DNA of 31,982 nt from a virus: positions 1 to 31,982 of IMG/VR virus record IMGVR_UViG_3300037285_000198. The stretch is one strand, 5' to 3'. Numbering within the stretch: the stretch's first letter is position 1; each line of letters opens with the position of its first letter. Below, piece by piece: positions 753 to 29,885 of this stretch. A program made the translations under genes and the position numbers. The notes below the pieces were generated by a model, which ran no database searches, was not told the origin of the DNA, and saw nothing but the letters and a program-made list of their open reading frames with translations.

Positions 753-827
753 TGGTACTCGTAGATGGAATCGAACCATCCGTCACTCAGTTATCAGCTG
801 AGGCCCTCACCGATTGGACTTACGAGC
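753..827 (-). tRNA. tRNA-Ile (anticodon GAU)
   Basis: Acceptor GCTCGTA pairs with TACGAGT; CCA is encoded. Anticodon stem CTCAG/CTGAG encloses loop CTGATAA. T-arm GATGG-TTCGATT-CCATC. The D stem is only about 3 bp. The stop codon (TGA) of the upstream homing endonuclease lies inside the anticodon loop, so the 5' half of this tRNA is also the last part of that reading frame. Confidence 0.9.
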
Positions 828-1447: not shown

Positions 1448-1452
1448 ACAAG

Positions 1453-1460
1453 TATTTATG
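1453..1460 (-). promoter_or_regulatory. Late promoter giving a leaderless start
   Basis: CATAAATA followed by 5 nt and then the ATG of the endonuclease at 1447. In T4 the box spans about -13 to -6, so transcription would begin at the A of the ATG. The same spacing occurs at three other genes in this window. Confidence 0.6.
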
Positions 1461-1465
1461 CTTTT

Positions 1466-1502
1466 AGGTCAGCTCTCCGCTCTACCACTGAGCTACACGA
1501 CG
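1466..1502 (-). pseudogene. Orphan tRNA 5' half (anticodon GAC or broken GAU)
   Basis: Reads as a tRNA start: acceptor CGTCGTG, TA, D-arm GCTC-AGTGGTA-GAGC, then GAGAG and CTGAC. After the anticodon the sequence no longer pairs and runs into the endonuclease promoter. No matching 3' half was found on the other side of the endonuclease. It may be an Ile (CTGA|TAA) or a Val (GAC) tRNA that was cut by the insertion. Confidence 0.6.
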
Positions 1503-1509
1503 TTATTTG

Positions 1510-1698
1510 TTATACTTGCTCCAGTTCTTGGAGCATTGAATTGTGATCTTCTTTGGACAACACAGTTGCCAAGCATGAGGTCAAAATCTCTATCTTTGAT
1601 TCAGCTTTATTTACTTGTCGTTCAAGATCGCATATGTGTTCATCAAGTGTTTCACATCTACTTTCAAGAACGTCTATATCATGTGACCATTCTTCCAT
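1510..1698 (-). CDS. Small coiled-coil protein, function unknown
   Basis: A 62-residue, highly charged protein with heptad-like spacing of Leu/Ile across most of its length, so a single coiled coil is likely. The start is supported by AAGGAA about 7 nt upstream of the ATG. It sits inside the tRNA cluster, directly upstream of the orphan tRNA half. There is no signal peptide or membrane segment. I do not recognise a family. Confidence 0.6.
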   Translation of the reverse strand: MEEWSHDIDVLESRCETLDEHICDLERQVNKAESKIEILTSCLATVLSKEDHNSMLQELEQV

Positions 1699-1720
1699 TG
1701 TATATTCCTTGTTTAATTAT

Positions 1721-1836
1721 TGGCATCACAGGGTGGGACACAACGCCCGCGCTCGACTCGACAGTGGCCACTATCTTTTGAACTCCATTCACGGCTTTAC
1801 AGGCGCGTATCTTATCACCCGAAGCTATCCGGTGAT
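1721..1836 (-). other. Oversized tRNA-like structure (116 nt)
   Basis: Candidate acceptor ATCACCG pairs in 6 of 7 positions with CTGTGAT, followed by G and CCA. A possible anticodon loop CTGTAAA follows the D region, but its stem is weak and the T-arm is not canonical. The interior contains a palindrome AGTGGCCACT. It could be a degenerate Tyr-type tRNA or a chance arrangement. Confidence 0.3.
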
Positions 1837-1856
1837 TATTAGAAGACTGTAATTCT

Positions 1857-1932
1857 TGGAGCGGGTAGAGGGTAACGATCCCTCTTCTCTGACTTGGCAA
1901 GCCAGTGCAATAAACCTGTATACGATACCCGC
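1857..1932 (-). tRNA. tRNA-Gly (GCC)
   Basis: Acceptor GCGGGTA/TACCCGC with encoded CCA. Anticodon stem CTGGC/GTCAG encloses TTGCCAA. T-arm GAGGG-ATCGTTA-CCCTC. Confidence 0.9.
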
Positions 1933-2021
1933 GTTATTAATTCTAGACAGGGTGTTTGCACCTTTGACCAAGTCCAGCTTGGGGAATCCTCACAAGGGAT
2001 TATTATATCATATCTAAACTT

Positions 2022-2096
2022 TGGTACTCCCGAAAGGAATCGAACCTTTGTTTCCAGGCTTCGTAGGCCCGAACCCGATATACCATCGGCGGAAGT
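2022..2096 (-). tRNA. tRNA-Arg (ACG)
   Basis: Acceptor ACTTCCG/CGGGAGT, discriminator A and CCA. Anticodon stem CGGGC/GCCTG encloses CTACGAA. T-arm AAAGG-TTCGATT-CCTTT. The D-arm is CCGAT/ATCGG. Confidence 0.88.
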
Positions 2097-2104
2097 GTTA
2101 AATT

Positions 2105-2187
2105 TGGAAGTCACGGTGAGAGTTGAACTCACTATCTTGCGATGCCTGGGATTTGCAATCCCGCCCCTTACCGTCCGGGCCCGTGAC
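2105..2187 (-). tRNA. tRNA-Cys (GCA) with an extra arm
   Basis: Acceptor GTCACGG/CCGTGAC. Loop TTGCAAA closed by GGGA/TCCC gives anticodon GCA; discriminator T is as expected for Cys. The variable region is about 14 nt and can fold as ATC-GCAA-GAT, where Cys tRNAs normally have 4-5 nt. T-arm GTGAG-TTCAACT-CTCAC. The 3' end reads TTCCA, one base longer than standard. Confidence 0.8.
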
Positions 2188-2196
2188 CATGTGTTC

Positions 2197-2279
2197 TTGA
2201 GCGGATATGGAGAATCGAACTCCTTACTCACAGCTTGGAAAGCTGCTGAAGACACCAGTCTCCATGAAGTTATACCCGC
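2197..2279 (-). tRNA. tRNA-Gly (UCC), odd D-arm
   Basis: Acceptor GCGGGTA/TATCCGC. Anticodon stem GCAGC/GCTGT encloses TTTCCAA. The T-loop TTCGATT is closed by a 4-bp stem. No proper CCA (CAA instead). The D region is about 8 nt longer than normal and can form a 7-bp hairpin around TGGT. Confidence 0.7.
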
Positions 2280-2294
2280 AATTTTTTATTACAA

Positions 2295-2374
2295 CTGGAG
2301 TGCTGGGATTCGAACCCTGACTAATTAGGTCATTTACCTGCCCTGTGCTAGCAATTAATGCAACAGACACTCCA
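2295..2374 (-). other. tRNA-like structure, isotype unclear
   Basis: Acceptor TGGAGTG pairs fully with CACTCCA and the T-loop TTCGAAT is canonical. The anticodon arm cannot be resolved: AGGT-AAATG-ACCT gives a 5-nt loop without U33. The acceptor helix continues outward: the flanks TTTTTTATTACA and TGTAATAAAAAA are inverted repeats. Probably a degenerate tRNA. Confidence 0.5.
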
Positions 2375-2401
2375 TGTGTAATAAAAAATATTCGTTATTA
2401 A

Positions 2402-2719
2402 TTATAGTTGAACCGCAACAAGACCAATTCCGCCCCAGTTTGATCCACTGGGACCGTTGATGTTAAATTGTACATCGTCATCAGTTACAGTATTATTGTG
2501 TTCTGCAGATATGCCAAGTTCGTGCATAATAGTATCTTTATATAGGCGTTCAATCTCTTCACGAACTTTTGGATCAACATTAGAGCCTATTTTAATAAAG
2601 CTATAGGCCGTTCTCTGGTGCATGCCATCAGTATAGTTTACGCTGCGTACATATTCAATCATACCTGATGTTGTTGCTGTAAACGATCCTGTGTTTGGTG
2701 CTACTGTAACACATATTAA
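2402..2719 (-). pseudogene. Possible 3' remnant of a protein gene
   Basis: About 105 codons, ending in a plausible protein tail (NINGPSGSNWGGIGLVAVQL), with a charged helical segment before it (VDPKVREEIERLYKDTI). Reading upstream in frame runs into the tRNA-like structure at 2723-2825 without a start codon that has a ribosome binding site. The gene therefore looks cut at its 5' end. An internal start at MIEYVRS is possible but its Shine-Dalgarno is poor. No family recognised. Confidence 0.35.
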
Positions 2720-2722
2720 TAA

Positions 2723-2825
2723 TGGAAGCAAGGGGAATCTAACCAAGGTCCCTAAACCTTTTCTCCTATTGCTCTGCATAGGGATAAGCAGACCATTGCA
2801 ATGACTCACGCCAAACTGCACTTCC
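2723..2825 (-). other. tRNA-like structure with possible pseudoknot (103 nt)
   Basis: Acceptor GGAAGTG pairs with TGCTTCC (two wobbles). A hairpin AAGGT/ACCTT encloses TTAGGG, so a Leu-UAG reading is possible. Upstream of it, TCTGC/GCAGA and CCTAT/ATAGG interleave as an H-type pseudoknot would. No CCA. A functional tRNA is doubtful. Confidence 0.3.
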
Positions 2826-2833
2826 ATATTCTT

Positions 2834-2855
2834 TGGCAAGGGTGGAGGCCTGTTG
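2834..2855 (-). pseudogene. Orphan 3' end of a split tRNA-Trp
   Basis: On the minus strand: GCCTC, then CACCCTT, G and CCA. CACCCTT pairs with acceptor AGGGGTG of the orphan 5' half at 3708-3764 in all 7 positions (one G-U). The two halves are separated by the HNH endonuclease gene and an unsplit tRNA-Trp. Confidence 0.6.
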
Positions 2856-2865
2856 CCGTTTACTT

Positions 2866-2937
2866 TGGCACCGGCGGAGATAATCGAAATCTACCTTTTG
2901 GGTTTTGGAGACCCATCTGCGTCCTACGCTCACCGAT
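2866..2937 (-). tRNA. tRNA-Trp (CCA), replacement copy
   Basis: Acceptor ATCGGTG/CGCCGGT with G and CCA. Anticodon stem TGGGT/ACCCA encloses CTCCAAA. The D-arm is tiny (GCG-TAGGA-CGC). The T-loop TTCGATT is normal. Its 5' end overlaps the stop codon of the HNH endonuclease. Confidence 0.75.
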
Positions 2938-3688
2938 AATAATTTTTTACTGCTTTTGACTGAGATCGTCGATCGATGTTTAATGATCGTAATAAACATC
3001 TAACTGTTTCATTTAATTTCATGTTATATTTTATACGCATATCTTCAACGCTAAGATATGCTATATTATAATCATATGCTATTTGAGCCACTACTCTGTA
3101 ATATTCGTCTAAAAATTTATCAGTCCCAATTACAGTATCATCAAGACCAAAATTTTCTACTAACCGATTTATACGTTGACCGTTGCGGCAAATTTTAGTT
3201 GTAGTACACGCTTTACTATTGCATTTACGGCAATATTTTATTTTTATTTTAGGTTGGGTCTTTGGCTGACGCCCCTTTACCCAACCATCCGGCACATTAT
3301 CTTTTATAAATTTGCCATTATTTAATGATACTGGGTCATAATACCAATACTTGCCAAAACTAGGGTTATTTGCACCTATTCTAGACTTACAGATTAATTG
3401 ATGTTTACGCTTGAGCCATCCGTATCGTTTGTTACTTCGTAAAATATTTGTTGATGATGATACTGTCATCATCATAGCAGCATAGACTAATCTGTCATTT
3501 GTGGGATACATTTTAACCAATAATTGATGGGCAAGGTAATGTTCTTCGGGAGTTAATTTGACTATATTTGACTTGTTATTATTGCCGCCTAAGCACTTAG
3601 GATGAATATGGTGTCGCTCCACATATCCTGCTATATTGCGAGATTTGGCTCTATTCATTAACTTGTAATAATGGGTTGCATAGTTCAT
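2930..3688 (-). CDS. HNH homing endonuclease
   Basis: An HNH motif lies near the N-terminus: ERHHIHPKCLGG...NIVKLTPEEHYLAH, with the paired His and the later His of the metal site. A cysteine cluster (CRKCNSKAC) in the middle suggests a zinc-binding DNA contact region. I place the start at the ATG at 3688 because it is 5 nt after the TAAATA box, as in the two sister genes; the upstream ATG at 3703 overlaps the promoter. The gene splits a tRNA-Trp gene in its T-loop and is followed by a complete tRNA-Trp. Function is inferred from the motif and the insertion site. Confidence 0.8.
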   Translation of the reverse strand: MNYATHYYKLMNRAKSRNIAGYVERHHIHPKCLGGNNNKSNIVKLTPEEHYLAHQLLVKMYPTNDRLVYAAMMMTVSSSTNILRSNKRYGWLKRKHQLICKSRIGANNPSFGKYWYYDPVSLNNGKFIKDNVPDGWVKGRQPKTQPKIKIKYCRKCNSKACTTTKICRNGQRINRLVENFGLDDTVIGTDKFLDEYYRVVAQIAYDYNIAYLSVEDMRIKYNMKLNETVRCLLRSLNIDRRSQSKAVKNYYR

Positions 3689-3693
3689 ACAAT

Positions 3694-3701
3694 TATTTAT
3701 C
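3694..3701 (-). promoter_or_regulatory. Late promoter giving a leaderless start
   Basis: GATAAATA, then 5 nt, then the ATG at 3688. The spacing is identical to the endonuclease genes at 1447 and 5219. Confidence 0.55.
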
Positions 3702-3707
3702 ATATAT

Positions 3708-3764
3708 GAACCCCCGACACGCGGGTTTGGAATCCGCTGCTCTAAACCACTGAGCTACACCCCT
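3708..3764 (-). pseudogene. Orphan 5' part of a split tRNA-Trp
   Basis: Acceptor AGGGGTG, TA, D-arm GCTC-AGTGGTTTA-GAGC, anticodon arm GCGG(A)-TTCCAAA-(C)CCGC with anticodon CCA, then GGGGG-TTC. The T-loop is interrupted after TTC, where the endonuclease promoter begins. The partner 3' end is at 2834-2855. Confidence 0.7.
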
Positions 3765-3774
3765 ACAGTTATTT

Positions 3775-3848
3775 TGGTACCCAATGGCGGAATCGAACCA
3801 CCGTATGATGTATGTAACACACCAGTTTTACCATTAAACTAATCGGGC
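3775..3848 (-). tRNA. tRNA-Val (UAC)
   Basis: Acceptor GCCCGAT/ATTGGGT with A and CCA. Anticodon stem GGTGT/ACATC encloses GTTACAT. D-arm GTTT/AAAC. T-arm GGTGG-TTCGATT-CCGCC. Confidence 0.9.
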
Positions 3849-3857
3849 ATAATATTT

Positions 3858-3934
3858 TGGTGCTCCTGGTAGGAGTCGAACCTACAACCAACGGATTCGA
3901 AATCCGGTACTCTATCCAGTTGAGCTACAGAAGC
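3858..3934 (-). tRNA. tRNA-Arg (UCG)
   Basis: Acceptor GCTTCTG/CAGGAGC with A and CCA. Loop TTTCGAA on stem CCGGA/TCCGT. T-arm GTAGG-TTCGACT-CCTAC. Confidence 0.92.
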
Positions 3935-3944
3935 ATATAATTTT

Positions 3945-4058
3945 TGGTATCAATGGCAGGATTCGAACCTACTGCCTCCAACGTAAGCGCTGGCGAGTTA
4001 CCACAGCTACCTGACAGTTTGCAACCCGTCATTAAGCTTTACCCTTCTCCACATCAAT
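3945..4058 (-). other. Oversized tRNA-like structure (114 nt)
   Basis: The 3' end is fully tRNA-like: T-arm GTAGG-TTCGAAT-CCTGC, then CATTGAT, A, CCA. The nearest matching acceptor strand, ATTGATG (7 of 7 pairs with two wobbles), is 107 nt upstream. The interior holds a TGACGG/CTGTCA hairpin with GTTGCAAA in the loop and a CCAGCG/CGTTGG hairpin. It is a tRNA with an insertion, or two fused tRNA remnants. The 82-nt spacer upstream contains a perfect 9-bp hairpin closed by GCAA. Confidence 0.4.
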
Positions 4059-4140
4059 TAGTAGATGCATATTGCTATGCATCTGATGGACCTACCTTTT
4101 GCACCATTGGTGTGTGGGCCCATGACAAACTCTTTATTCT

Positions 4141-4215
4141 TGGTGCCGCCAGAGGGTCTCGAACCCCCGTCTCAGACTTACAAGGTCCGTGCTAAACCAA
4201 CTCAGCTATAGCGGC
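4141..4215 (-). tRNA. tRNA-Thr (UGU)
   Basis: Acceptor GCCGCTA/TGGCGGC with A and CCA. Anticodon stem CGGAC/GTCTG encloses CTTGTAA. T-arm GGGGG-TTCGAGA-CCCTC. Confidence 0.9.
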
Positions 4216-4224
4216 GTTATTCTT

Positions 4225-4299
4225 TGGATGCCCGGGCAGGGTTCGAACCTGCGAATGAGAGGATCAAAACCTCCTGCCTTACCACTTGGCGACCGAGCA
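4225..4299 (-). tRNA. tRNA-Gln (UUG)
   Basis: Acceptor TGCTCGG/CCGGGCA, T and CCA. Anticodon stem GGAGG/CCTCT encloses TTTTGAT. T-arm GCAGG-TTCGAAC-CCTGC. Confidence 0.9.
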
Positions 4300-4309
4300 A
4301 TATTGTTCT

Positions 4310-4395
4310 TGGATGGATAGGTAGGATTCGAACCTACAGTTGCGTTAGCAGTCAGGACCAAAGCCTGATGGGGTTACCAATTTTCCTACTATCCA
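4310..4395 (-). tRNA. tRNA, probably Gln (UUG), with extra arm
   Basis: Acceptor TGGATAG/CTATCCA, T and CCA. A perfect 5-bp anticodon stem TCAGG/CCTGA encloses CTTTGGT, so positions 34-36 read TTG. The variable region is 14 nt with a TGC-TAAC-GCA mini-hairpin. T-arm GTAGG-TTCGAAT-CCTAC. The identity is uncertain because of G37 and the extra arm. Confidence 0.65.
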
Positions 4396-4404
4396 ATAAT
4401 TCTG

Positions 4405-4429
4405 TTACGGCTTGTCGGAGACACCGTAA
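4405..4429 (-). other. Hairpin in tRNA spacer
   Basis: TTACGG/CCGTAA encloses a second helix TGTC/GACA, so about 10 bp with a two-base bulge. No T-run follows, so it is not a standard terminator. It may be a processing hairpin in the polycistronic tRNA precursor. Confidence 0.3.
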
Positions 4430-4493
4430 AACTCCATAATCAACTCATTACTGAGACGGTCATAGACTCACCATTTCGTGGACGATTAATTTT

Positions 4494-4528
4494 TGGTCTC
4501 CCAAGAAGGACTTGAACCTTCGAACGAG
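4494..4528 (-). pseudogene. Orphan 3' half of a split tRNA-Pro
   Basis: T-arm GAAGG-TTCAAGT-CCTTC, then TTGGGAG, A, CCA. TTGGGAG pairs in all 7 positions with CTCTCAG of the orphan 5' half at 5233-5299. Between them lie the HNH endonuclease gene and a complete tRNA-Pro. Confidence 0.75.
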
Positions 4529-4532
4529 ATAG

Positions 4533-5219
4533 TTATTGGTCGGAAACCGGGGAATCGAACCCCGCTCTCTGCACCCCAAATGCAGCCGATGACCCAGCCT
4601 CTTCGTCTCCGATGTTTTGTGTCCATTCTGCCACGTACTGCTCAATTTCGTCTTTTATCAAATGATGGAAACTAGAATGGCAATAGTGATGGTGTGTAGG
4701 GCATAATGGCAGTAAATTTTCAATTCTGTTATCAGTGTGATCCTCATTAAGATGATGTACCGCTACAATGTTTTGTTCATTGCATATGATGCATTTCTTA
4801 TCATGATACCGGAAACATAACTGTCTATAATCGCCTCTATCTGACAATACTGCGTCAGATGCATATTTCAACCCGCCAAACCGTCCATGTCGGAAATATG
4901 TGTTGGAACATGAATATGAACATGTAGTTCCCTCCTTCATAAAAGATGTACTGCACACTGGACATATTTTTGTCTTTTGCTGTATCACAACAGGATTATT
5001 AATGCATGATGCTTCATGTCGGCTAATATTCCCGACATTAAATACTTGATTACAATATTGGCATCCAACGTCTTTGAGTCGACTACGGAAAGTAGCAGCA
5101 TCAATATCACCGTTATAAAACCAATGTGATCGAAATGCCTTCAAACTCTTATAGGTTTTGTTATTCTTTGGACTAGTGAACGTACCGTCTTTATTTTTAT
5201 ATTTTGTTAAATCTGTCAT
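4533..5219 (-). CDS. HNH homing endonuclease reading through tRNA-Pro
   Basis: The N-terminal part has a zinc-finger pattern (CQYCNQVF...H...C) and a second CPVC...C cluster. The C-terminal part has an HNH motif: CIICNE...VHHLNEDHTDNRIENLLPLCPTHH. The start is taken at 5219, 5 nt after TAAATA. The frame stays open through the whole downstream tRNA-Pro and stops right after its CCA, so the last 25 or so residues are tRNA-encoded. The gene lies between two halves of a split tRNA-Pro. Confidence 0.8.
   Translation of the reverse strand: MTDLTKYKNKDGTFTSPKNNKTYKSLKAFRSHWFYNGDIDAATFRSRLKDVGCQYCNQVFNVGNISRHEASCINNPVVIQQKTKICPVCSTSFMKEGTTCSYSCSNTYFRHGRFGGLKYASDAVLSDRGDYRQLCFRYHDKKCIICNEQNIVAVHHLNEDHTDNRIENLLPLCPTHHHYCHSSFHHLIKDEIEQYVAEWTQNIGDEEAGSSAAFGVQRAGFDSPVSDQ
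4537..4611 (-). tRNA. tRNA-Pro (UGG), replacement copy
   Basis: Acceptor CGGAGAC/GTTTCCG with A and CCA. A perfect anticodon stem CTGCA/TGCAG encloses TTTGGGG. T-arm GCGGGG-TTCGATT-CCCC. The D-arm does not fold in a standard way. The gene lies entirely inside the 3' end of the HNH endonuclease frame. Confidence 0.8.
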
Positions 5220-5224
5220 ATAGT

Positions 5225-5232
5225 TATTTATG
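5225..5232 (-). promoter_or_regulatory. Late promoter giving a leaderless start
   Basis: CATAAATA, 5 nt, then ATG at 5219. The 9-mer AATAACTAT at this junction recurs at 4529-4537, at the other end of the inserted segment. Confidence 0.55.
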
Positions 5233-5299
5233 CTCAACGCCACCAGGTTTGGATATAAAAGTCCAAACCAGACGCTTTACCAGACTAAGCTACTGAGAG
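5233..5299 (-). pseudogene. Orphan 5' half of a split tRNA-Pro
   Basis: Acceptor CTCTCAG, TA, D-arm GCTT-AGTCTGGTA-AAGC, then TCTGG-TTTGGAC (anticodon TGG). Downstream the sequence leaves the tRNA pattern and forms a perfect 8-bp hairpin, GGTTTGGA/TCCAAACC. The break is therefore in or just after the anticodon loop. The acceptor matches the 3' half at 4494-4528. Confidence 0.75.
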
Positions 5300-5310
5300 A
5301 TATTATTAAT

Positions 5311-5382
5311 TGGTCAGGATGGGGAGGATTGAACTCCCTCAGCAAGCTTCCAAGGCCCACGCCGTCACCAGAACACACCCTG
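5311..5382 (-). tRNA. tRNA, probably Pro (UGG)
   Basis: Acceptor CAGGGTG/CATCCTG with A and CCA. Anticodon stem TGGGC/GCTTG (three wobble pairs) encloses CTTGGAA. T-arm GGGAG-TTCAATC-CTCCC. A37 is unusual for Pro, so the identity is provisional. Confidence 0.65.
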
Positions 5383-5390
5383 TTGTTATT

Positions 5391-5465
5391 TGGCGATCCT
5401 GTGGGTAATCGAAACCCAATCTTCTCGCAGACAACGAGTTGTAATAGCCGTTATACGACAGGACC
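5391..5465 (-). tRNA. tRNA-Asp (GUC)
   Basis: Acceptor GGTCCTG/CAGGATC with G and CCA. Stem CTCG/CGAG around loop TTGTCTG. T-arm TGGGT-TTCGATT-ACCCA. Confidence 0.88.
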
Positions 5466-5469
5466 AATG

Positions 5470-5597
5470 TGGTGGGCTCAACCCTGTGGGGCGATTTAAC
5501 TAGTCAGACACAGCTAGTACCAATTTCAGCCGGAAATTCTTTAAGATGCGTCCGGATCCGCATTTTTAATTCGGTGCTGGGTCATTTGCATTAGCCC
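5470..5597 (-). other. Oversized tRNA-like candidate (128 nt)
   Basis: GGGCTAA pairs in 6 of 7 positions with TGAGCCC, followed by A and CCA. The interior holds strong hairpins (ATGCG/CGCAT; ACTAG/CTAGT) but no recognisable T-arm or anticodon arm. Low confidence. The rest of the stretch to 5660 holds only a 7-bp hairpin GTGTTGA/TCAACAC. Confidence 0.25.
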
Positions 5598-5661
5598 CAA
5601 CCATTCCACATTTTTGTGTTGACGTTGATATCATTTTCAACACAATATACCGAAACTTGGT

Positions 5662-5686
5662 GGACCATGCGAGACTCGCATGGTCC
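5662..5686. repeat. Perfect 12-bp palindrome with 1-nt centre
   Basis: GGACCATGCGAG, then A, then CTCGCATGGTCC. The arms are perfect. It lies in a gene-free spacer of the tRNA cluster. It could be a protein or nuclease target, or a very tight RNA hairpin. Confidence 0.8.
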
Positions 5687-5698
5687 TAATACGGTCTT

Positions 5699-5762
5699 CA
5701 AAATGCGACTCCTTGTACCAAGCTGGTTATGCTTTGGTGGAGTTTATCCAAGTCGCATTTTG
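5699..5762. repeat. Nested inverted repeat next to tRNA-Ala
   Basis: The outer arms CAAAATGCGACT and AGTCGCATTTTG are perfect. On the minus strand the interior folds as TGGA-TAAAC-TCCA and CCAAAGC-ATAACCA-GCTTGG, the second with a 7-nt loop. The outer helix ends at the 3' end of tRNA-Ala. The overall shape resembles a tRNA lacking a T-arm, but this is not a confident call. Confidence 0.6.
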
Positions 5763-5829
5763 GAGAAACGGGGTAACGATCCCCGCCATCAACCTTGCAA
5801 AGGTCGAGTCTAGCCCATCTAGCATCCCC
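5761..5829 (-). tRNA. tRNA-Ala (UGC)
   Basis: Acceptor GGGGATG/TTTCTCC (one T-T mismatch), no encoded CCA. Anticodon stem CGACC/GGTTG encloses TTTGCAA. T-arm CGGGG-ATCGTTA-CCCCG. Confidence 0.85.
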
Positions 5830-5836
5830 GTATTAA

Positions 5837-5919
5837 TGGTGGGAGGGTGAGAAGTCGAATCTCTCGCTTTCACTCCGGGTTTACAGTCCATCTGTGGATA
5901 CCCTCCACTGAACCCTCCC
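5837..5919 (-). tRNA. tRNA-Tyr (GUA)
   Basis: Acceptor GGGAGGG/CCCTCCC with A and CCA. Loop CTGTAAA on a short GG/CC stem with an A-C mismatch. A long variable arm, as normal for bacterial Tyr, and T-loop TTCGACT. Confidence 0.85.
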
Positions 5920-5995
5920 ATTATCGTGGTTGGCGCTACACTGTGTTGGTGCGCATTAACTGAAGGACACCCTCCACTTCAGTACCGTGTTATAT

Positions 5996-6084
5996 TGGAG
6001 GAAGATGGAGTAATCGAAACCCTAAGAGGTTCTAGCCCTTACCATGGATTTCAAGTCCACTTTGACACCTTGCCGGCATCTTCC
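5996..6084 (-). tRNA. tRNA-Ser (UGA)
   Basis: Acceptor GGAAGAT/ATCTTCC; the 3' end TCCA includes a discriminator T rather than the usual G. Anticodon stem GTGGA/TCCAT encloses CTTGAAA. A long variable arm fits class II. Confidence 0.87.
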
Positions 6085-6094
6085 ATTATTCTAT

Positions 6095-6178
6095 TGGTGC
6101 GGGCGGTGGGACTCGAACCCACAATCCTTCCGGCGCAAAATTTTAAGTTTTGTGTGTATACCATTCCACCACGCCCGC
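6095..6178 (-). tRNA. tRNA-Leu (UAA)
   Basis: Acceptor GCGGGCG/CGCCCGC with A and CCA. Anticodon stem CAAAA/TTTTG encloses CTTAAAA. Long variable arm. T-arm GTGGG-TTCGAGT-CCCAC. Confidence 0.93.
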
Positions 6179-6186
6179 ATTATTGT

Positions 6187-7113
6187 TTATCTCTGAATGA
6201 AAGGTTTTCCTTGTATAGCGTTGTATGCAGGGATATATTTTATTAACATTTTTGTAAACGATACATGTGAATAAGGATAATCACTAAGCTTAACAAACTC
6301 ACGTATTGATGTGTTGTTTGCTGCCTTAAATGTTTCAAACCACTCGATTGCAGTAGCTTCGTTTAAACTATGTTTACATTCTGCACACAGTTTGATTGCT
6401 GATACTAGATTAGGCGGTTTTGGTACCGTTGTTTTTTTAATTGCTGGTGGACGTTTTGATTTGGCTATTTGCTTACTCCGATACCATCCCTGCGGTATTT
6501 CATGTTCATGTTTACATCTGGAGTACGTCTTACCATCAGTAATTACAAACGTACCAAATTGTGAATTTCCATCACCAGCTTGGTGAATTTTACTTTTTTC
6601 ACCAATTGCGTTTTTTGAATGAGCAGTGTGTTTCTTGCCTTTAAATGGGTTTTTACCTCCAGCAGCATAAAACTCAACTGCTGCCATCGCGAGTTTGTTA
6701 GCGCGACGCGCACACCATATTGGGTCAGTTAACCGCAAATGTTGTTGTGTCGCAAGCCCTTGCTTAAAATTGTCAACCACATTGGGTGTTTTGCCATTCA
6801 TACCATATAAATTTAGTCCTCTGCGGTTAATATATAACATATTATCTGGTCCGCCTTCAATCAAATTATACGTGTCTGATCTGGCTACAAACCTAGTGTT
6901 GACTAACTGACGTTCCTTGTTAATCATATCGTCTATATTGTCATATGTAAACAGTATTTCTTTTAGGAAATTTTCCAATCCATATTTATTTTGGGCACGA
7001 CGTAGATACGACCCTGACCCCATATATCGGTCATCTAGATGCATAGTTTGGTGCATGCCAATATATATTTTGTTGTTAATTAAATTCGTTAGTTGATAGA
7101 TAGTATAATACAT
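6187..7113 (-). CDS. GIY-YIG homing endonuclease (SegA-like)
   Basis: A 308-residue protein. The N-terminal GIY-YIG nuclease reads YTIYQLTN...KIYIGMHQ, with Arg (DDRYMGSG) and the later catalytic Glu region (MINKERQLV). The middle has NUMOD3-like Gly/Asn-rich DNA-contact repeats (GGKNPFKGKKHTAHSKNAIGEKS). The start is supported by AAAGGAAAG 3 nt before the ATG. A TAAATA box lies upstream at about 7132. It sits between tRNA-Asn and tRNA-Leu and, unlike the other three minus-strand endonucleases here, has no split tRNA next to it. Confidence 0.85.
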   Translation of the reverse strand: MYYTIYQLTNLINNKIYIGMHQTMHLDDRYMGSGSYLRRAQNKYGLENFLKEILFTYDNIDDMINKERQLVNTRFVARSDTYNLIEGGPDNMLYINRRGLNLYGMNGKTPNVVDNFKQGLATQQHLRLTDPIWCARRANKLAMAAVEFYAAGGKNPFKGKKHTAHSKNAIGEKSKIHQAGDGNSQFGTFVITDGKTYSRCKHEHEIPQGWYRSKQIAKSKRPPAIKKTTVPKPPNLVSAIKLCAECKHSLNEATAIEWFETFKAANNTSIREFVKLSDYPYSHVSFTKMLIKYIPAYNAIQGKPFIQR

Positions 7114-7174
7114 GGCTTTCCTTTACCATGTTATTTAGCATATCTCGAACTTTTATTAATAGTAGTTAACAGTG

Positions 7175-7247
7175 CTCTGCATACTCGGCTCGAACGAGTG
7201 ACATACGGATTAACAATCCGGTGTTCTACCAACTGAACTAATGCAGA
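7175..7247 (-). tRNA. tRNA-Asn (GUU)
   Basis: Acceptor TCTGCAT/ATGCAGA, discriminator G, no CCA. Loop TTGTTAA on stem CGGA/TCCG. D-arm GTTC/GAAC. T-arm ACTCG-TTCGAGC-CGAGT. Confidence 0.9.
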
Positions 7248-7260
7248 GCGCTATTAACTA

Positions 7261-7283
7261 ATTTGATAACTCTGTTATCAAAT
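7261..7283. repeat. Perfect 10-bp hairpin between ncRNA candidate and tRNA-Asn
   Basis: ATTTGATAAC, loop TCT, GTTATCAAAT. No T-run on either side. It may mark the 3' border of the structured RNA region to its right (minus strand) or serve RNA processing. Confidence 0.6.
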
Positions 7284-8010
7284 GCTAGCGAAAATGTAAT
7301 TATATTTCATTGTGAAGGTATTTAAGCACAGCACCCTGCCAGGGGCTTTACTCTTTAAACTTTATCCATAACTGGCATCATGGACTTATTAACATCAAGA
7401 AGGCTTGCGCCCAATCAACATACGCTTTATCTTGAACGGTCAAAGCCGCAAGACTTAAATCTTCACAAAGAAATATAATTACATTACAAACAATCTGCTT
7501 ACAGCTACACTAAAGTGACTAATCACAAGCTGTCTTAAGCCACACAACCTCTTTGGGTCAAGATTTTAGTGTATGTGTAAGCGGATTATCTGCGTTGCCC
7601 CATATTTTCGTGGTCCTATATGCTTAGGGTCTTTCAAGTAGCCCACGGGATAAATATCTCAGGATATTTCCAATCCTAGTGAGATTTTTTCAGCTTTCGC
7701 ATCCATCCTCAAACACGCCCATTCAATCTTTTTTTAAGTGGTGATAACGATCGCGTTTCGTAATCCACTTTGGTGTCGTATACAAGGCTTACTGGCTCAT
7801 CACCTGCTTGTTTATTTTGTTGCGCTAATAACTGTGTTATCATTGCTTCTCCTATATAATAGCGTTTGCAGCTTGCACTGTCAACAACTATTTTCGTTAG
7901 CGTCTTCTAAACCGTAGTTTGATCTGCTATTCGTCTATCGTAGTGTAAAGTATTGCAATCTAATGTCAACTACTTTTTTAAAAAATCTTATGATAAGGTT
8001 TTGTAAAAAC
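7284..8010 (-). ncRNA. Candidate large structured RNA (GOLLD/ROOL-like by context)
   Basis: About 730 nt with no credible reading frame on either strand, lying between tRNA-Asn and tRNA-Glu. It has a 25-bp helix between 7290-7314 and 7460-7484 with one mismatch, enclosing 145 nt. A second helix of about 24 bp joins 7493-7516 and 7562-7585 (20 of 24 paired). Further right are ATCTCA-GGAT/ATCC-TGAGAT at about 7656-7685 and AAGTGG...ACGA/TCGT...CCACTT at about 7735-7770. Large ornate RNAs such as GOLLD and ROOL occur in phages beside tRNA genes and have similar size. I could not match a specific consensus by eye. The strand is assumed from the neighbouring tRNAs. Confidence 0.55.
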
Positions 8011-8018
8011 TTAGTTTG

Positions 8019-8093
8019 TGGTAGCCCCAACGAGTATCGATCTCGTTACTCTACCTTGAAAGGGTAGCGATCTAGCCAGTAATCCATGGGGCC
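8019..8093 (-). tRNA. tRNA-Glu (UUC)
   Basis: Acceptor GGCCCCA/TGGGGCT with A and CCA. A perfect anticodon stem CTACC/GGTAG encloses CTTTCAA. T-arm ACGAG-ATCGATA-CTCGT. It is the first tRNA of the minus-strand cluster. Confidence 0.92.
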
Positions 8094-14954: not shown

Positions 14955-15240
14955 TTGTAGGTAGGCCCGTTGGATGATACGGTGGAGCCTATACCGCAGT
15001 AGATTAAGCCGCTAGGGCCATTTCTACGTTGTTTGCATTTGCTGCATTTAGAAATTTGATCGCGTTAACCGAGCTTAAATCCGGGTATCCTAATAATTGT
15101 TTTTCCTGCACGTCGATCCTATTTCATCCCCGTAACGTTCATCATTTAGTTGTTTACAAGCACTACCTTGAGGATGTCAATCACCCGTCTAAACTTTTGG
15201 TGGAGATGCTGGGTACCGCCCCCAGGTCCGTTTCATTTAT
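14955..15240 (-). ncRNA. ssrA: Circularly permuted (two-piece) tmRNA
   Basis: The gene reads acceptor piece first: T-arm CTGGG-GGCGGTA-CCCAG, then CATCTCC, A and CCA ending at 15198. A 66-nt intervening segment follows (15132-15197). The coding piece then begins at 15131 with GGGGATG, which pairs in 7 of 7 positions with CATCTCC. It continues AAATAGGATCGACGTG, the conserved D-loop region of tmRNA. The tag frame at 15007-15045 reads AANANNVEMALAA and stops at TAA; the ALAA end is typical for ClpXP/ClpAP recognition. The coding piece closes with a hairpin TAGGC...GCCTA before a T-rich stretch. tmRNA rescues stalled ribosomes. The outer ends are approximate. Confidence 0.88.
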
Positions 15241-15288
15241 TTCAATTATCAATAATGTAATAGCCGATTACTCTCCATTACATATGTC

Positions 15289-15296
15289 TATTTATA
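15289..15296 (-). promoter_or_regulatory. Consensus late promoter (TATAAATA) upstream of tmRNA
   Basis: Exact TATAAATA on the minus strand, about 50 nt before the tmRNA acceptor piece. It suggests late expression of the tmRNA. Confidence 0.65.
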
Positions 15297-15322
15297 CACT
15301 ATCGTCACAGTGTTGTCAAGTG

Positions 15323-16347: not shown

Positions 16348-16899
16348 TTACATACTGTCAAGCATACCCAACAGGCGGTCAGTTTTATTTTCTGCTGCAA
16401 TGTTGATGGCAAATTTCCAACCGTCAGCCCGTTCTAAATCATTAAAGAAATAATCAATGTCGAATTCAGTAACTGTCCACATACCACCTTGTACTTCGCC
16501 ATCTAATTGGCCTGGTGCCCATTGACAATATCCTGTCATCAGCACAAAATCGTTTGGTCCAACACAGCGTTGGATGTCGTTAACGATATTTGCCCCACCT
16601 GTGTAACTTAATTTGTCGTTTAATCTAATGGAAGTATCACCTAGATAATCATTTGTATGAATAACATAGCCCAGTTGTGGGTCCACTGGTCCACCTAAAT
16701 GGATACAATCTGGATGAGGCCAATTGATATCTTCAGCAAATCTGCCGGCCATACCATGTTCCATTTTAACATTCAGCATAACTCCAATACTACCTGACTC
16801 GTCATCTGTGTGTACATATATCACAGTTTGTTCAAATGCGTAACCTGTAATCATGGGTGTGGCTAACAGGATTTTTCCTTGGGTGTAGATTGTAGACAT
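16348..16899 (-). CDS. YqgE/AlgH-family (DUF179) protein
   Basis: 183 residues from the ATG at 16899 (AGAGGT upstream). The family pattern is clear: GKILLATPMITGYAFEQTVIYVHTDDESGSIGVMLN at the start, then IHLGGPVDPQ, and later MTGYCQWAPGQLDGEV. In bacteria this domain is about 185 residues, so the phage copy is full length. The molecular role of YqgE/AlgH is not established; it is linked to regulation in Pseudomonas. Its presence in a phage suggests acquisition from a proteobacterial host. Confidence 0.85.
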   Translation of the reverse strand: MSTIYTQGKILLATPMITGYAFEQTVIYVHTDDESGSIGVMLNVKMEHGMAGRFAEDINWPHPDCIHLGGPVDPQLGYVIHTNDYLGDTSIRLNDKLSYTGGANIVNDIQRCVGPNDFVLMTGYCQWAPGQLDGEVQGGMWTVTEFDIDYFFNDLERADGWKFAINIAAENKTDRLLGMLDSM

Positions 16900-16934
16900 A
16901 ATAATACCTCTTGTTTCAATATTACTTATGCTCA

Positions 16935-16962
16935 CAAAAAAGAGCAACCTTTCAGTTACTCT
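16935..16962 (-). terminator. Rho-independent terminator of the micro-operon
   Basis: AGAGTAAC, loop TGAAAG, GTTGCTCT, then six T on the minus strand. It lies 24 nt after the last gene of the 17573-16986 micro-operon. Confidence 0.8.
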
Positions 16963-16985
16963 GGATATTTTGATTGTAGTTGATG

Positions 16986-17135
16986 TTATTGCGTCTTAAT
17001 TTCTTCTGCCATTTTGTAACAGTTTGCCGCTGCTTGAAAATGCCCTTGGGAACGAAGAACGTTTCCTGCTCGGGTGTATCCAGTGATTTCAAATCCACGC
17101 ATTATACGATTGCCTATTCTTTTTAATACTGCCAT
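16986..17135 (-). CDS. Small basic protein, last gene of micro-operon
   Basis: 49 residues, amphipathic and basic (MAVLKRIGNRIMRGFEITGY...). The ATG overlaps the stop of the upstream gene (TAATG), so it is read by coupled translation. A terminator follows. The sequence GHFQAAANCYKMAEEIK suggests two short helices. No family recognised with confidence. Confidence 0.6.
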   Translation of the reverse strand: MAVLKRIGNRIMRGFEITGYTRAGNVLRSQGHFQAAANCYKMAEEIKTQ

Positions 17136-17296
17136 TAAAAATATCCTCGACGACTGAGTTCACGTTCGCGGCGTTCTAAGTCACAACGATCAACTGATTG
17201 TGCAAGATAGTCTTGTATTTCACGTTGTTGGCGGGTGAGCTTCATGGTGTCATCGTTGGATTTTGCACCAAGGAATGTTGCAATTAATTTAAACAT
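17135..17296 (-). CDS. DUF3563-like small protein
   Basis: 53 residues. The C-terminal part reads DYLAQSVDRCDLERRERELSRRGYF, which matches the YLAxSxDxxDLERRxRELxRR pattern of the DUF3563 family found in proteobacteria. The N-terminus is hydrophobic (MFKLIATFLGAK). TAATG overlaps couple it to both neighbours. Function unknown. Confidence 0.65.
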   Translation of the reverse strand: MFKLIATFLGAKSNDDTMKLTRQQREIQDYLAQSVDRCDLERRERELSRRGYF

Positions 17297-17439
17297 TATT
17301 GGCGTTCCTCTCTAAGTAAACGGCTTAGTGCTGCTTGGCGGTCTCCAGCGCGGAATTCCATATCAACGTAACGTTGCAATCCAGCACGGCGAGTCTTTTG
17401 CGATGGGCGGGTAAAGATACCCAGTAAAAATGCAAACAT
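17296..17439 (-). CDS. Small protein, paralogue of the next upstream gene
   Basis: 47 residues. Its C-terminal half RYVDMEFRAGDRQAALSRLLREER aligns with RYVELEYREENRAEVLVRLLKEAR of the gene at 17439, so the two arose by tandem duplication. The N-terminus is hydrophobic (MFAFLLGIF). TAATG overlap with the following gene. Function unknown. Confidence 0.65.
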   Translation of the reverse strand: MFAFLLGIFTRPSQKTRRAGLQRYVDMEFRAGDRQAALSRLLREERQ

Positions 17440-17573
17440 TATGAGCGAGCCTCCTTGAGTAAACGTACTAGAACTTCTGCGCGGTTTTCTTCGCGGTACT
17501 CTAGCTCAACGTAGCGTGTGACGCCGTCAATTATTTTTTGCTTGTTGAAGCGAAGGTATAAAAATTTGAACAT
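17439..17573 (-). CDS. Small protein, first gene of micro-operon
   Basis: 44 residues from the ATG at 17573, supported by AGGAGA 7 nt upstream; the longer frame has no such site. A hydrophobic start (MFKFLYLRF) is followed by a charged helix. Paralogue of the downstream gene. A GTAAATA box lies about 60 nt upstream, so late expression is possible. Confidence 0.65.
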   Translation of the reverse strand: MFKFLYLRFNKQKIIDGVTRYVELEYREENRAEVLVRLLKEARS

Positions 17574-17723
17574 GATGTAGTCTCCTGTGTGTATCATGAA
17601 CAGATAACAACATAATTGCTGCACCTGCATATATATTTACACCATATTACTACGAAATTAAGGGGTTTACTACTGCTGTTAGCGCAAACTCGTCATGCAA
17701 GATTTGCATGGCTGTGTCAAGAC

Positions 17724-17763
17724 AAAAATGCCCTTGTATGAAACAAATCATACAAGGGCATTT
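17724..17763 (-). terminator. Strong rho-independent terminator after clpS
   Basis: A perfect stem of about 15 bp (ATGCCCTTGTATGA with its complement), a 5-nt loop and a T-run on the minus strand. It closes the infC-rpsU-clpS unit. Confidence 0.9.
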
Positions 17764-17785
17764 GGTAACAAATATGTTAGTGGGA

Positions 17786-18085
17786 CTATTCTTCTTCCAA
17801 CGTTAACTTCAGTTGTTGTTTTGATAGTTTGATATGTGTCTGTGCTTCTGCCATTTTTTGCTCTGCAATTTCATATGAAAATATCCCGGCAACGCCTTTG
17901 CCCAGTGAATGTACAGTGAGCATCAGTGCAGCGGCCTGTTGGTAATCCATTTTAAAAGTGTGTAGTAATAATTCTACAACGAAATCCATTGGGGTCACAT
18001 CATCGTTATGTAGTACAATGGCCCAATTCGTTGGGCGCTTTAAAGCAGTAGTGGTCATAACTACTGTATCATTATCAGTTGACAT
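17786..18085 (-). CDS. clpS: ClpS, N-end-rule adaptor of ClpAP
   Basis: 99 residues. The family core is intact: WAIVLHNDDVTPMDFVVELL (Asp28/Asp29) and MLTVHSLGKGVAGIFSYEIAE (His59), the residues that form the pocket for N-terminal hydrophobic residues. ClpS delivers such proteins to ClpA and slows ClpAP degradation of ssrA-tagged proteins. The start at 18085 has GAGGGAAC upstream. It is the last gene of a unit with S21 and IF3. A phage ClpS could redirect host proteolysis, and the window also encodes the ssrA tag. That link is inference. Confidence 0.92.
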   Translation of the reverse strand: MSTDNDTVVMTTTALKRPTNWAIVLHNDDVTPMDFVVELLLHTFKMDYQQAAALMLTVHSLGKGVAGIFSYEIAEQKMAEAQTHIKLSKQQLKLTLEEE

Positions 18086-18099
18086 AGTTCCCTCGTTGT

Positions 18100-18348
18100 T
18101 TAAATTTCGTTGCGTTTGTTGAGTTCTTTTTGATGCCGTTTTCTGGCGGCAGCTTTGGCTTTTTTGCGTTTGATGCTGGGCTTTTCAAATGCCTCCTTGT
18201 CGCGCATTTGTTGAAACACACCCTCGGCTTGCATCATTTTCTTTAACCGGCGCAGCGCCTGTCCAGTGTTGTTGTCACGGACTTCAACCCGCGAGCCCTG
18301 CGGCCCCTCACGTCTTTGTTTTTGTGGTCGTTGTTCTCTAGGTGCCAT
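18100..18348 (-). CDS. rpsU: Ribosomal protein S21
   Basis: 82 residues. The S21 core is [20 protein letters not shown], followed by [20 protein letters not shown], the conserved basic tail. A 17-residue Gln/Arg-rich extension precedes it. S21 binds near the 3' end of 16S rRNA and helps the 30S subunit engage the message. Phage copies are known and are thought to enter host ribosomes and favour phage mRNA. The start overlaps the end of infC by 11 nt, so translation is coupled. Confidence 0.92.
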
Positions 18349-18853
18349 CTTTTGTTCCTTTTAGCATTGCTGTAATACGGTTACCAGTGTATGACGGTTT
18401 ACCATCATACTCTATATCCTCTACGGATACCAACACCCGTTCCAAGACATCATATCCCAAATTGGTGTGCTGTCGTTCCCGGCCTTTGAATTGCACAATC
18501 AGCTTGACCTTATTGCCTTTGCTGATAAATTTTGCAATGTTGCGACATTTAGTTTGAAAGTCATGTTCATCAATATTTGGTTTAAACTGTACTTCTTTGA
18601 TTTCGATGCGGGCTTCACGTTGAGCCTTGGCATCTTCTTTGGCCTTGCGTTTTCGATCATAATTGAACTTTGCAAAGTCTAAAATCTTGCACACAGGCGG
18701 ATCTGCCTGCTCGTTAATCTGCACTAAGTCAAGACCATCGTTGGTGGCAAGTGCAATTGCTTTGTACAGTGGCAACACTTCGCTACCTAAGTCTGTGACA
18801 ACCCGCACCAGTTGGCTGCGGATCTCGTGATTGACTAGAGTTCGTATCTTCAT
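18338..18853 (-). CDS. infC: Translation initiation factor IF3
   Basis: 171 residues, close to the bacterial length of 180. Both domains are present: the N-terminal [20 protein letters not shown]...[24 protein letters not shown], and the C-terminal [42 protein letters not shown]3 binds 30S, prevents premature 50S joining and checks initiator tRNA and start codon. The gene opens a three-gene unit behind a consensus sigma-70 promoter. Spacing from AAGGA to the start is long (about 13 nt), perhaps lowering its translation. IF3 has been reported in some very large phages. Confidence 0.95.
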
Positions 18854-27674: not shown

Positions 27675-29885
27675 TTATATCTCACATTGATTTCCCGCGC
27701 ATGCTTGGGCACCCATTTGGTCAATATCAGTAAACTTCTTCTTGCTCAAAGTATTCTTGAAATCAACTGGCTTCATGTGTGTTTGGATCTTGGTCCATTT
27801 ATGCAACAAAGCAACATCTTTGAGGCAATACTCTGCCTTCTTTTGATCACCATCAAAATAGTTTGCTGCAAAGTTTTGGAATCGTCTCACCCAATCTGCG
27901 CCCTGATCTTTTTGCTCTCCACCAAACTGTGTGTCTTGGTTTTGTGCTGCAAAGGTTGCTGACCAAAGATTACCGTAGCCTTTTCCAGCTTCAACAATCA
28001 AACCACTGGCAAAGATAGCTGCGCGGCCATATGTGTCCACAATTTGTTGCTCAGTTAGGACTTCTGTGAACGGTGCTTGGTTGTAATCTTTATCACCACT
28101 GGTTGCCAAGAATGAAATTCCTGCAAAGCTGTCGCGATTTTCAAACAAATACTCTTCCACTTCTTCCCATTGATCCGGCGCAACTTGTACCGTATTTGAT
28201 ACATTGTGACGTACAGTTGGGTCAACACACAACGATTCGTCTGTGCCATGTTCGATCCAAGAGTTTTGTACCAACTTGACTTTTTCCAATAACTTTACAC
28301 CATATAGCTCGCTCTTAAACAATGAGTCTGCTGGTGCAATAACTGGGAAAGCAATCTGGTAATCTGTACCGTTTGTGCTCCAAACTGAGTCTTCAACCAT
28401 GTAAGGATTAGTGGCTGCAAATAGTTGTGCAACTTCTGTTTCCTTGTTCATTTGCACGTGGCGCAAATAACGTGGGCTGTGGTCACCGTGGATACCACTG
28501 CTGGTTCCCAATAGCACACTTGCGTTGCCTGAAGGCTTGACACAGGTTGTACGTGCTGCTGGATTGATCCCCAATAGTGCTGCAACCTGGCGGTTGACTT
28601 TCTTGACCAACAATGCACCCTTTTCAAGAATAGCTTCATCAAACAAGATGTCTGGTGCGTTCATCCAACCTGTGATACTTACACCAATTAGTGCTTCACG
28701 GTCGAAAATCTTCTTGCTGGTTTCATCCAAGAATTTAAAGTCTGTATACCCAGCTTGTAGTGTGCCCATTGTGGCACCCACACGGCAGGCGCGGAGGAAC
28801 TCTTCTTCAGTTGTACACTTTGATCCGTTGATTTCGCTGAGGTTACAACCTTGCCAACCTGATGTTTTTGTATCACCTTCAATCAAAACTGGGTACTTGC
28901 CAATTTCAACACATGGGTTGTATGTGTGTTCTGTTGATTCGGAAAACACAAAGCCTGGCTCACCAAATTCACGAATTGACTTCATGATTTTTGTAAACTG
29001 CTTGCGGCTGGCTTCTTTGCGCACAATAACAACACTGTTGTTGCTGCGTCCACGTTGTGGGTTGTCTTCATACCAGTTACCAGTTTTCGCCTGTAGCATT
29101 TCATCATCTGTGGGTGAAAACAAGCAAATCGTAGCTGAACGGCGAACACCGCCTGCTAATACAGCATCAGCAGCATGCATGCAAACGTCGTATACTTCAA
29201 TTGGCTTGAGAACGGTACGTCCTGCTAATACTGCACCTTGAAGTAGATGCTCGATCTTATCAAGTGCTTTGCGCAGGGGTTCTGGACCTGGTGCTTTAAA
29301 ACCACCAGAGATCATAGAGCCTTTGGGGCGTACTTTACTGATGTCGAAATAGATACGACGACCAGCATACTCTGGATACTTGCCATTTACAAAAAAGCTT
29401 GACATAAGAACATCAAGTGCTGTTGCCCAGCCTTCAATGCTGTCTTCTACTTCATGCATCTTTGCTTGGCCTTTGCGTGGCGCAATCTTGGATAGTTTGG
29501 CAACATGATGTTCTTGTACTGAAAATCCAGCGCCCGCGCCACATAATAGAATGTAGAACATTTCGCCAAAGAAGGCAGGGCGGTCTGCATATGATGATGT
29601 ACAGTTGTACATACGCATTTGATGCTTGAGAATTTGGTCACCACCAAATTGCAAGGCTCGTTGTGCGCCCAACACATATTTTAGCTTGTAGAGTGCTTCT
29701 GCTTCGTCAATCAATACCGCAAGTTCGTCGGTCATCTTGTCTTTGTAGAATTCACGGTGCATGTTCATAACACGCGCTACGCTTTCTTCCCAGGTTTCGT
29801 ATCGGGATAGATTTTCATCCCAGCGGCTATAACCTTCGTAAAATTTTGCTTCGCCCATTAAGGCTCGGGTATCGATGTCTTTCAT
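27675..29885 (-). CDS. nrdJ: Adenosylcobalamin-dependent ribonucleoside-triphosphate reductase (class II)
   Basis: 736 residues, the length of the monomeric Lactobacillus-type enzyme. Key residues are visible: Cys95 (MYNCTSS), Cys325 and Glu327 in NPCVEI (radical-site loop), Cys347 in WQGCNLSEI, and the C-terminal shuttle pair Cys729/Cys734 (CAGNQC). It makes dNTPs from NTPs using vitamin B12 coenzyme and needs no oxygen or second subunit. The start has AGGAGC 7 nt upstream. The glutaredoxin nearby may recycle the C-terminal cysteines. The enzyme depends on cobalamin from the host or its surroundings. Confidence 0.95.
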   Translation of the reverse strand: MKDIDTRALMGEAKFYEGYSRWDENLSRYETWEESVARVMNMHREFYKDKMTDELAVLIDEAEALYKLKYVLGAQRALQFGGDQILKHQMRMYNCTSSYADRPAFFGEMFYILLCGAGAGFSVQEHHVAKLSKIAPRKGQAKMHEVEDSIEGWATALDVLMSSFFVNGKYPEYAGRRIYFDISKVRPKGSMISGGFKAPGPEPLRKALDKIEHLLQGAVLAGRTVLKPIEVYDVCMHAADAVLAGGVRRSATICLFSPTDDEMLQAKTGNWYEDNPQRGRSNNSVVIVRKEASRKQFTKIMKSIREFGEPGFVFSESTEHTYNPCVEIGKYPVLIEGDTKTSGWQGCNLSEINGSKCTTEEEFLRACRVGATMGTLQAGYTDFKFLDETSKKIFDREALIGVSITGWMNAPDILFDEAILEKGALLVKKVNRQVAALLGINPAARTTCVKPSGNASVLLGTSSGIHGDHSPRYLRHVQMNKETEVAQLFAATNPYMVEDSVWSTNGTDYQIAFPVIAPADSLFKSELYGVKLLEKVKLVQNSWIEHGTDESLCVDPTVRHNVSNTVQVAPDQWEEVEEYLFENRDSFAGISFLATSGDKDYNQAPFTEVLTEQQIVDTYGRAAIFASGLIVEAGKGYGNLWSATFAAQNQDTQFGGEQKDQGADWVRRFQNFAANYFDGDQKKAEYCLKDVALLHKWTKIQTHMKPVDFKNTLSKKKFTDIDQMGAQACAGNQCEI

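Follow-up and report, generated by a model that had tools for sequence, protein, structure and literature searches.

The window, a 31,982-base IMG/VR virus record, carries a two-piece, circularly permuted tmRNA gene on the minus strand at about positions 15284 to 14955 (Table 1). tmRNA rescues stalled ribosomes and tags their incomplete products for degradation. An earlier note on this DNA had proposed a phage-encoded permuted tmRNA in which an acceptor piece precedes, across 66 nt, a coding piece, and this layout was confirmed, with the 3' acceptor strand through CCA at 15208 to 15198 and the coding piece starting at 15131. The Rfam search that the note had suggested matched RF04321 (tmRNA_permuted) at 102.4 bits (cutoff, 47; E value, 3.9e-19; positions 15255 to 15004, covering the whole model from 1 to 213) and RF01849 (alpha_tmRNA) at 101.7 bits (cutoff, 50; E value, 6.4e-27; positions 15276 to 15004). 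Both scores are twice the curated cutoffs and far beyond chance, and the second match bears out the proposed alphaproteobacterial layout. The acceptor strands had been described as pairing perfectly; all seven pairs are indeed formed, but the strands are not wholly Watson-Crick, since one of the pairs is a G-U (G3-U70). G3-U70 is the alanine identity pair of tmRNA. The coding piece opens with GGGGATGAAATAGGATCGACG at position 15131, and GGATCGACG is present after GGGGATG. The coding piece likely ends close to a hairpin located 3' of the tag; both the 5' and the 3' ends of the RNA are approximate. ARAGORN did not call this tmRNA gene, nor does the gene stand out in a plain minimum-energy fold (z = -0.34), the latter being expectable because the RNA is permuted and partly pseudoknotted.

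Table 1. Features of the tmRNA locus and of its upstream context in the window
Feature	Positions	Strand	Remarks
-35 element TTGACA	15314-15319	-	Perfect sigma-70 consensus; kept in relatives
TATAAATA, serving as both -10 element and T4-type late box	15289-15296	-	17 nt after the -35 element
Acceptor piece of tmRNA	15198-15284	-	~87 nt; 5' end (15284) predicted from the -10 element; RF01849 match begins at 15276
T-arm CTGGGGGCGGTACCCAG	15209-15225	-	Rfam match and layout
3' acceptor strand CATCTCC (15208-15202), discriminator A (15201), encoded CCA (15200-15198)	15198-15208	-	
Intervening segment, 66 nt	15132-15197	-	52 nt align to relative L616; removal predicted
Coding piece of tmRNA	14955-15131	-	3' end approximate
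5' acceptor strand GGGGATG	15125-15131	-	7 of 7 pairs with CATCTCC, including G3-U70
Tag frame AANANNVEMALAA and stop, DNA GCAGCAAATGCAAACAACGTAGAAATGGCCCTAGCGGCTTAA	15004-15045	-	Resume codon GCA, 15045-15043
Hairpin 3' of tag, directly before T run	14960-14995	-	Seen in the sequence; folding energy unremarkable (z = -0.47)
ClpS	17786-18085	-	Pfam; context, 2.6 kb upstream of tmRNA
bS21	18100-18348	-	Pfam; context upstream of tmRNA
IF-3	18338-18853	-	Pfam; context upstream of tmRNA

The protein genes upstream of the tmRNA form a cluster (16348 to 18853) encoding an AlgH-like protein (DUF179), ClpS, bS21, and IF-3, and their order is the same in relatives. SmpB (PF01668), the phage-encoded protein by which a complete phage trans-translation system would be recognized, was found neither in the window record nor in 65 other virus records, mostly tmRNA bearing, most records being fragments; the RNA must therefore use host SmpB if it is working. 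Elsewhere in the window, fourteen tRNA genes are located on one strand at 753 to 8093, and some ORFs among them (e.g., 2930 to 3703 and 6187 to 7113) resemble HNH and GIY-YIG homing endonucleases by eye. The region from 27675 to 29885 encodes a B12-type ribonucleotide reductase, of which the insertion and alpha domains match, with the barrel domain scoring just under the Pfam cutoff.

The earlier proposal that the phage RNA has its own tag was upheld by the open frame AANANNVEMALAA, which begins with an Ala codon and ends with AA followed by a stop. Three in-frame GCA codons are candidate tag starts. We favor the first, because it is located at offset 86 of the coding piece after CTAAAT, like in the relatives, most of whose tags begin at offsets 80 to 88 and are preceded by CTAAAT. 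Every one of the 64 phage tags counted has a terminal AA, extended to LAA in 53 of them, which fits ClpXP-type degradation. In its AN.N part, the window tag has Ala where Asp is usual; bacterial AN.N tags have Asp at that position in 91 of 96 cases. The ANAN form was seen in 8 of 77 phage tags (window positions 15045 to 15004 and L026, L035, L063, L092, L109, L111, and L118) versus 0 of 96 bacterial ones (P = 0.0012, a value made optimistic by kinship among the loci). The Ala-for-Asp change might affect how a protease adaptor, e.g., SspB, binds the tag. In the relative L616, the tmRNA tag is ANTNAAPEMAIAA.

Two-piece tmRNAs of aquatic phages were reported in 2022, when 53 two-piece phage tmRNAs, 50 of them from marine or aquatic phages, were described (PMC9004378); a merged model covering permuted tmRNA followed in 2025 (PMC11915505). 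Using an acceptor-piece pattern with 22 fixed bases, we matched at least 100 contigs in IMG/VR, and the complete permuted layout, including the coding piece, was present in 102 of the 121 sequences examined, the window being one of them. Since such phage tmRNAs have already been published and are common in IMG/VR, the window gene is not new as a kind. Two variable acceptor pairs were formed in all 94 distinct phage loci among the matches listed, and one of these pairs occurred as four pair types among the 94 loci. That the variable pairs are always formed indicates that both tmRNA halves evolve together as one RNA.

The window tmRNA gave no blastn match against 50,697 phage records; the tmRNA of a relative, used as a query, matched that of Methylophilales phage Melnitz. 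IF3 as bait retrieved no relatives from IMG/VR. Close relatives of the window are L612 (145 kb) and L613 (92 kb), with ribonucleotide reductases that are 82% and 84% identical, respectively, to that of the window. In all three, the genes are ordered alike, from exonuclease and ribonucleotide reductase through tail genes, cell wall hydrolase, bS21, ClpS, and AlgH-like protein to a small membrane protein, IF3 being matched in L613 only, and both relatives have a permuted tmRNA at the matching place. The best score of the window coding piece was 81 with phage tmRNAs versus 43 with bacterial ones, and the piece thus appears to have been passed down among phages and not acquired recently from a host. 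For the acceptor piece, the best scores were about equal (59 with phage and 61 with bacterial tmRNAs), and a recent bacterial origin of this piece was therefore unsupported. Its T-arm reads GGGGGCGGTACCC in the window (15229 to 15198) versus GGGGTTCAATTCCCC in both of the closest relatives, L616 and L618. This difference, seen although 52 nt of the intervening segment align well between the window and L616, points to a possible exchange of the acceptor part. Such an exchange, if real, would explain why the distance from the promoter to the T-arm is 73 nt in the window versus 48 to 49 nt in most phages. This large bacterial virus probably infects alphaproteobacteria, as judged by the RNA alone; an alpha-type tmRNA is also present in a phage of another class (PMC9004378).

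The intervening segments of the phage loci reach 224 nt and are at least 100 nt long in 31 of 102 cases, versus a median of 27 nt and a maximum of 82 nt in bacteria, where 0 of 105 segments reach 100 nt. In the segment, the stretch TCAAGGTAGTGCTTGTAAA.AACT is nearly identical in the window and L616 and is a possible processing signal, although the segment itself should be discarded. Small open frames were noticed in the intervening segments of L004, L056, and L117 (63 amino acids), L015 and L057 (45 amino acids), L104 and L118 (41 amino acids), and L007 and L120 (45 amino acids). When pairs of these loci were compared codon by codon, most differences fell on the third position of the codon (P = 0.002 to 0.045), and the frames look like small protein genes nested in the tmRNA precursor. 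Many other apparent ORFs of the intervening segments were rejected as genes, since they run through the segment and stop only at the conserved GAAATAG.

The late promoter proposed in the earlier note is real as far as the box TATAAATA is concerned, but it is not a bare late box, as TTGACA is located 17 nt upstream. TTGACA-N17-TATAAA matches the sigma-70 consensus (TTGACA, 16 to 18 nt, TATAAT) at 11 of 12 positions, and the composite TTGACA-N17-TATAAATA, exact in the window, was reached in 0 of 100 shuffles. A strict sigma-70 promoter scanner, which requires T as the last base of the -10 element, passed over it for that reason. Of the two marks of a T4-type late promoter, the window thus has the TATAAATA box but not the absence of a -35 element. 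Judged by sequence, sigma-70 and late elements are both present at one start site, as in the RB49 type of overlap. The position of TATAAATA 17 nt behind a perfect TTGACA means that the element fits a host sigma-70 promoter as well as a T4-type late box, and this dual fit makes expression from early infection onward likelier than expression limited to the late phase.

Among the matches listed, TATAAATA was found close upstream in 68 of 106 distinct phage tmRNA loci and in 0 of about 112 bacterial loci retrieved with the same acceptor pattern. An exact TTGACA lies 15 to 19 nt from 47 of these 68 phage copies and one with five of six bases from 6 others, i.e., 53 copies have a good -35 element. 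The boxes are kept while their surroundings diverge: most positions of the spacer between the -35 element and TATAAATA are poorly conserved, and all four tmRNA loci reached via relatives of window proteins have TTGACA-N17-TATAAATA with unlike spacers. Sigma-70-like sites elsewhere in the same contigs mostly have TATAAT, and TATAAATA was seen in 1 of 82, compared with 59 of 72 at the tmRNA genes of those contigs (matches not de-duplicated). Other TATAAATA sites of these phages, which lack a -35 element, precede genes in 52% of cases versus 17 to 30% for control 8-mers, which is how T4-type late promoters look, and only 3 of 114 late boxes of the same phages have a -35 element with at least five of six bases. 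In an independent IMG/VR scan for the composite alone, a tmRNA was found behind 25 of 109 distinct sites, whereas control scans with TATAATAT instead or with a spacing of 22 each had a tmRNA behind 0 of 117. All P values are optimistic, since the loci are related by ancestry. A T4-type late sigma factor related to that of Melnitz was identified in six of the seven searched records of at least 80 kb and also in G067, a relative of the window, whereas the window fragment yielded none. Its occurrence suggests that these phages are related to T4.

These data bear on when the tmRNA is made. A late-only reading, in which the tmRNA acts only late and TATAAATA is simply a late promoter of the T4 gp55 type, draws on the exactness of the box and on the gene-preceding TATAAATA sites without a -35 element, yet it is improbable: a pure late promoter was rejected on account of the perfect -35 element at the ideal 17-nt spacing in the window and the good -35 elements of most phage copies, so unlike the late boxes of the same phages. 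Expression restricted to the late phase, as the earlier note had assumed, was accordingly abandoned, as the promoter fits host sigma-70 equally and activity from early infection onward is likelier. The converse possibility, that the promoter is an early sigma-70 promoter only, with TATAAATA as a variant -10 element favored at stable-RNA genes and the late sigma factor uninvolved, deserves more weight but is still doubtful. The -35 element and spacing are perfect, the -10 element matches at five of six positions, and the Melnitz tmRNA, whose upstream sequence also reads TTGACA-N17-TATAAATA, was put behind an early promoter by its authors. However, the other sigma-70-like sites of these contigs use TATAAT almost without TATAAATA, and at the tmRNA genes the full 8-base late box is kept.

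Two further alternatives concern the role of the RNA. The main role of the phage tmRNA could be to have host proteins broken down as a source of amino acids, the proteases being directed by phage ClpS. The ClpS encoded 2.6 kb upstream is like solved ClpS, with the pocket NDD and His visible, its position is kept in relatives, and recycling of amino acids has been proposed (PMC9004378). Nevertheless, we regard this as unlikely, as ClpS was seen in just 6 of 51 records, the majority being tmRNA records, and tmRNA works on stalled ribosomes and not on chosen proteins. In addition, relatives of 117 to 228 kb have ClpS without a permuted tmRNA, which argues against tight coupling, and ClpS and tmRNA were for this reason not adopted as a functional pair. 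It is very improbable that the gene is a decaying or captured remnant of host ssrA with no function in the phage. Although prophages are known to carry off pieces of host ssrA (discussed in PMC9004378), every functional element of the window gene is intact, the gene is kept in diverged phages with compensatory acceptor pairs and its own conserved promoter, and its coding piece resembles phage tmRNAs more than bacterial ones.

We therefore consider it probable that the locus encodes a phage-borne two-piece tmRNA of the alphaproteobacterial type that is processed, charged by the host, used for tagging, and expressed from a dual early and late promoter. A single transcript would start from about 15284. 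Host tRNA-processing enzymes would remove the 66-nt segment, with RNase P generating the 5' terminus of the coding piece and with endo- and exonucleases acting at the acceptor end. The resulting acceptor RNA and coding RNA would stay joined through the 7-bp acceptor stem and additional helices. This tmRNA would be charged by host alanyl-tRNA synthetase via G3-U70, and host SmpB and EF-Tu would deliver it to stalled ribosomes, where translation would resume at GCA. The protein would thereby gain AANANNVEMALAA, with the LAA end acting as a ClpXP-type degradation signal. The tmRNA is probably made throughout infection: from TTGACA-N17-TATAAATA, the host polymerase would transcribe it early on, and the phage late sigma factor would direct its transcription at late times. 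The likely benefit would be that ribosomes are kept free throughout infection during mRNA degradation. The composite promoter thus leads to a testable claim, namely, that ribosomes need rescuing from the first minutes of infection up to lysis, and it cautions that TATAAATA alone should not be read as "late."

Among the closest known systems is the tmRNA of phage Melnitz (MZ577097), which has the same permuted order, alpha type, T4-like phage background, and TTGACA-N17-TATAAATA. However, its promoter was read as early only by the authors, its tag and phage lineage are unlike those of the window, and a glutamine riboswitch was reported in the 3' part of the tmRNA (PMC9004378). The alphaproteobacterial two-piece tmRNA (RF01849; Caulobacter type) also has the acceptor piece first, the T-arm GGGGGCGGTACCC, GAAATAGGATCGACG, and an AN.N tag with an AA end, but the bacterial type has no TATAAATA upstream, short intervening segments, and Asp where the window has Ala. 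The translation sets of huge phages, in which tmRNA, IF3, and bS21 likewise occur in one phage (PMC7162821; Sinorhizobium phage AP-J-162, PMC11242549), include SmpB as a group, whereas none was found in the window record. In T4-like phages RB49 and S-PM2, a sigma-70 promoter and a TATAAATA late box are also found at one gene, but those are protein genes, which are middle genes in T4, whereas the window has a stable RNA and a single fused element (PMC2984593). On balance, we lean slightly toward regarding the two-piece tmRNAs of T4-related phages as a class of their own, with a fused early-plus-late promoter, tags drifting away from those of bacteria, and, in some lineages, a small protein gene in the cut-out segment.

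The composite is also a simple DNA signature for finding other phage genes that are possibly on throughout infection. In addition to tmRNAs, it precedes genes for a gp32-like single-strand DNA binding protein and for Hsp20-like proteins, as well as a few tRNAs and genes of unknown function, and some of these perhaps belong to a group that such phages express from the beginning to the end of infection. Genes judged by eye to be Hsp20-like follow it in L247, L253, L256, L262, L265, L271, L275, and L291, and gp32-like genes, named by eye or, in L278, by PHROG, follow it in L278, L318, L327, L339, and L346. An unknown protein starting with MAHFAELK is encoded behind it in L243, L245, L280, L298, L317, and L351.
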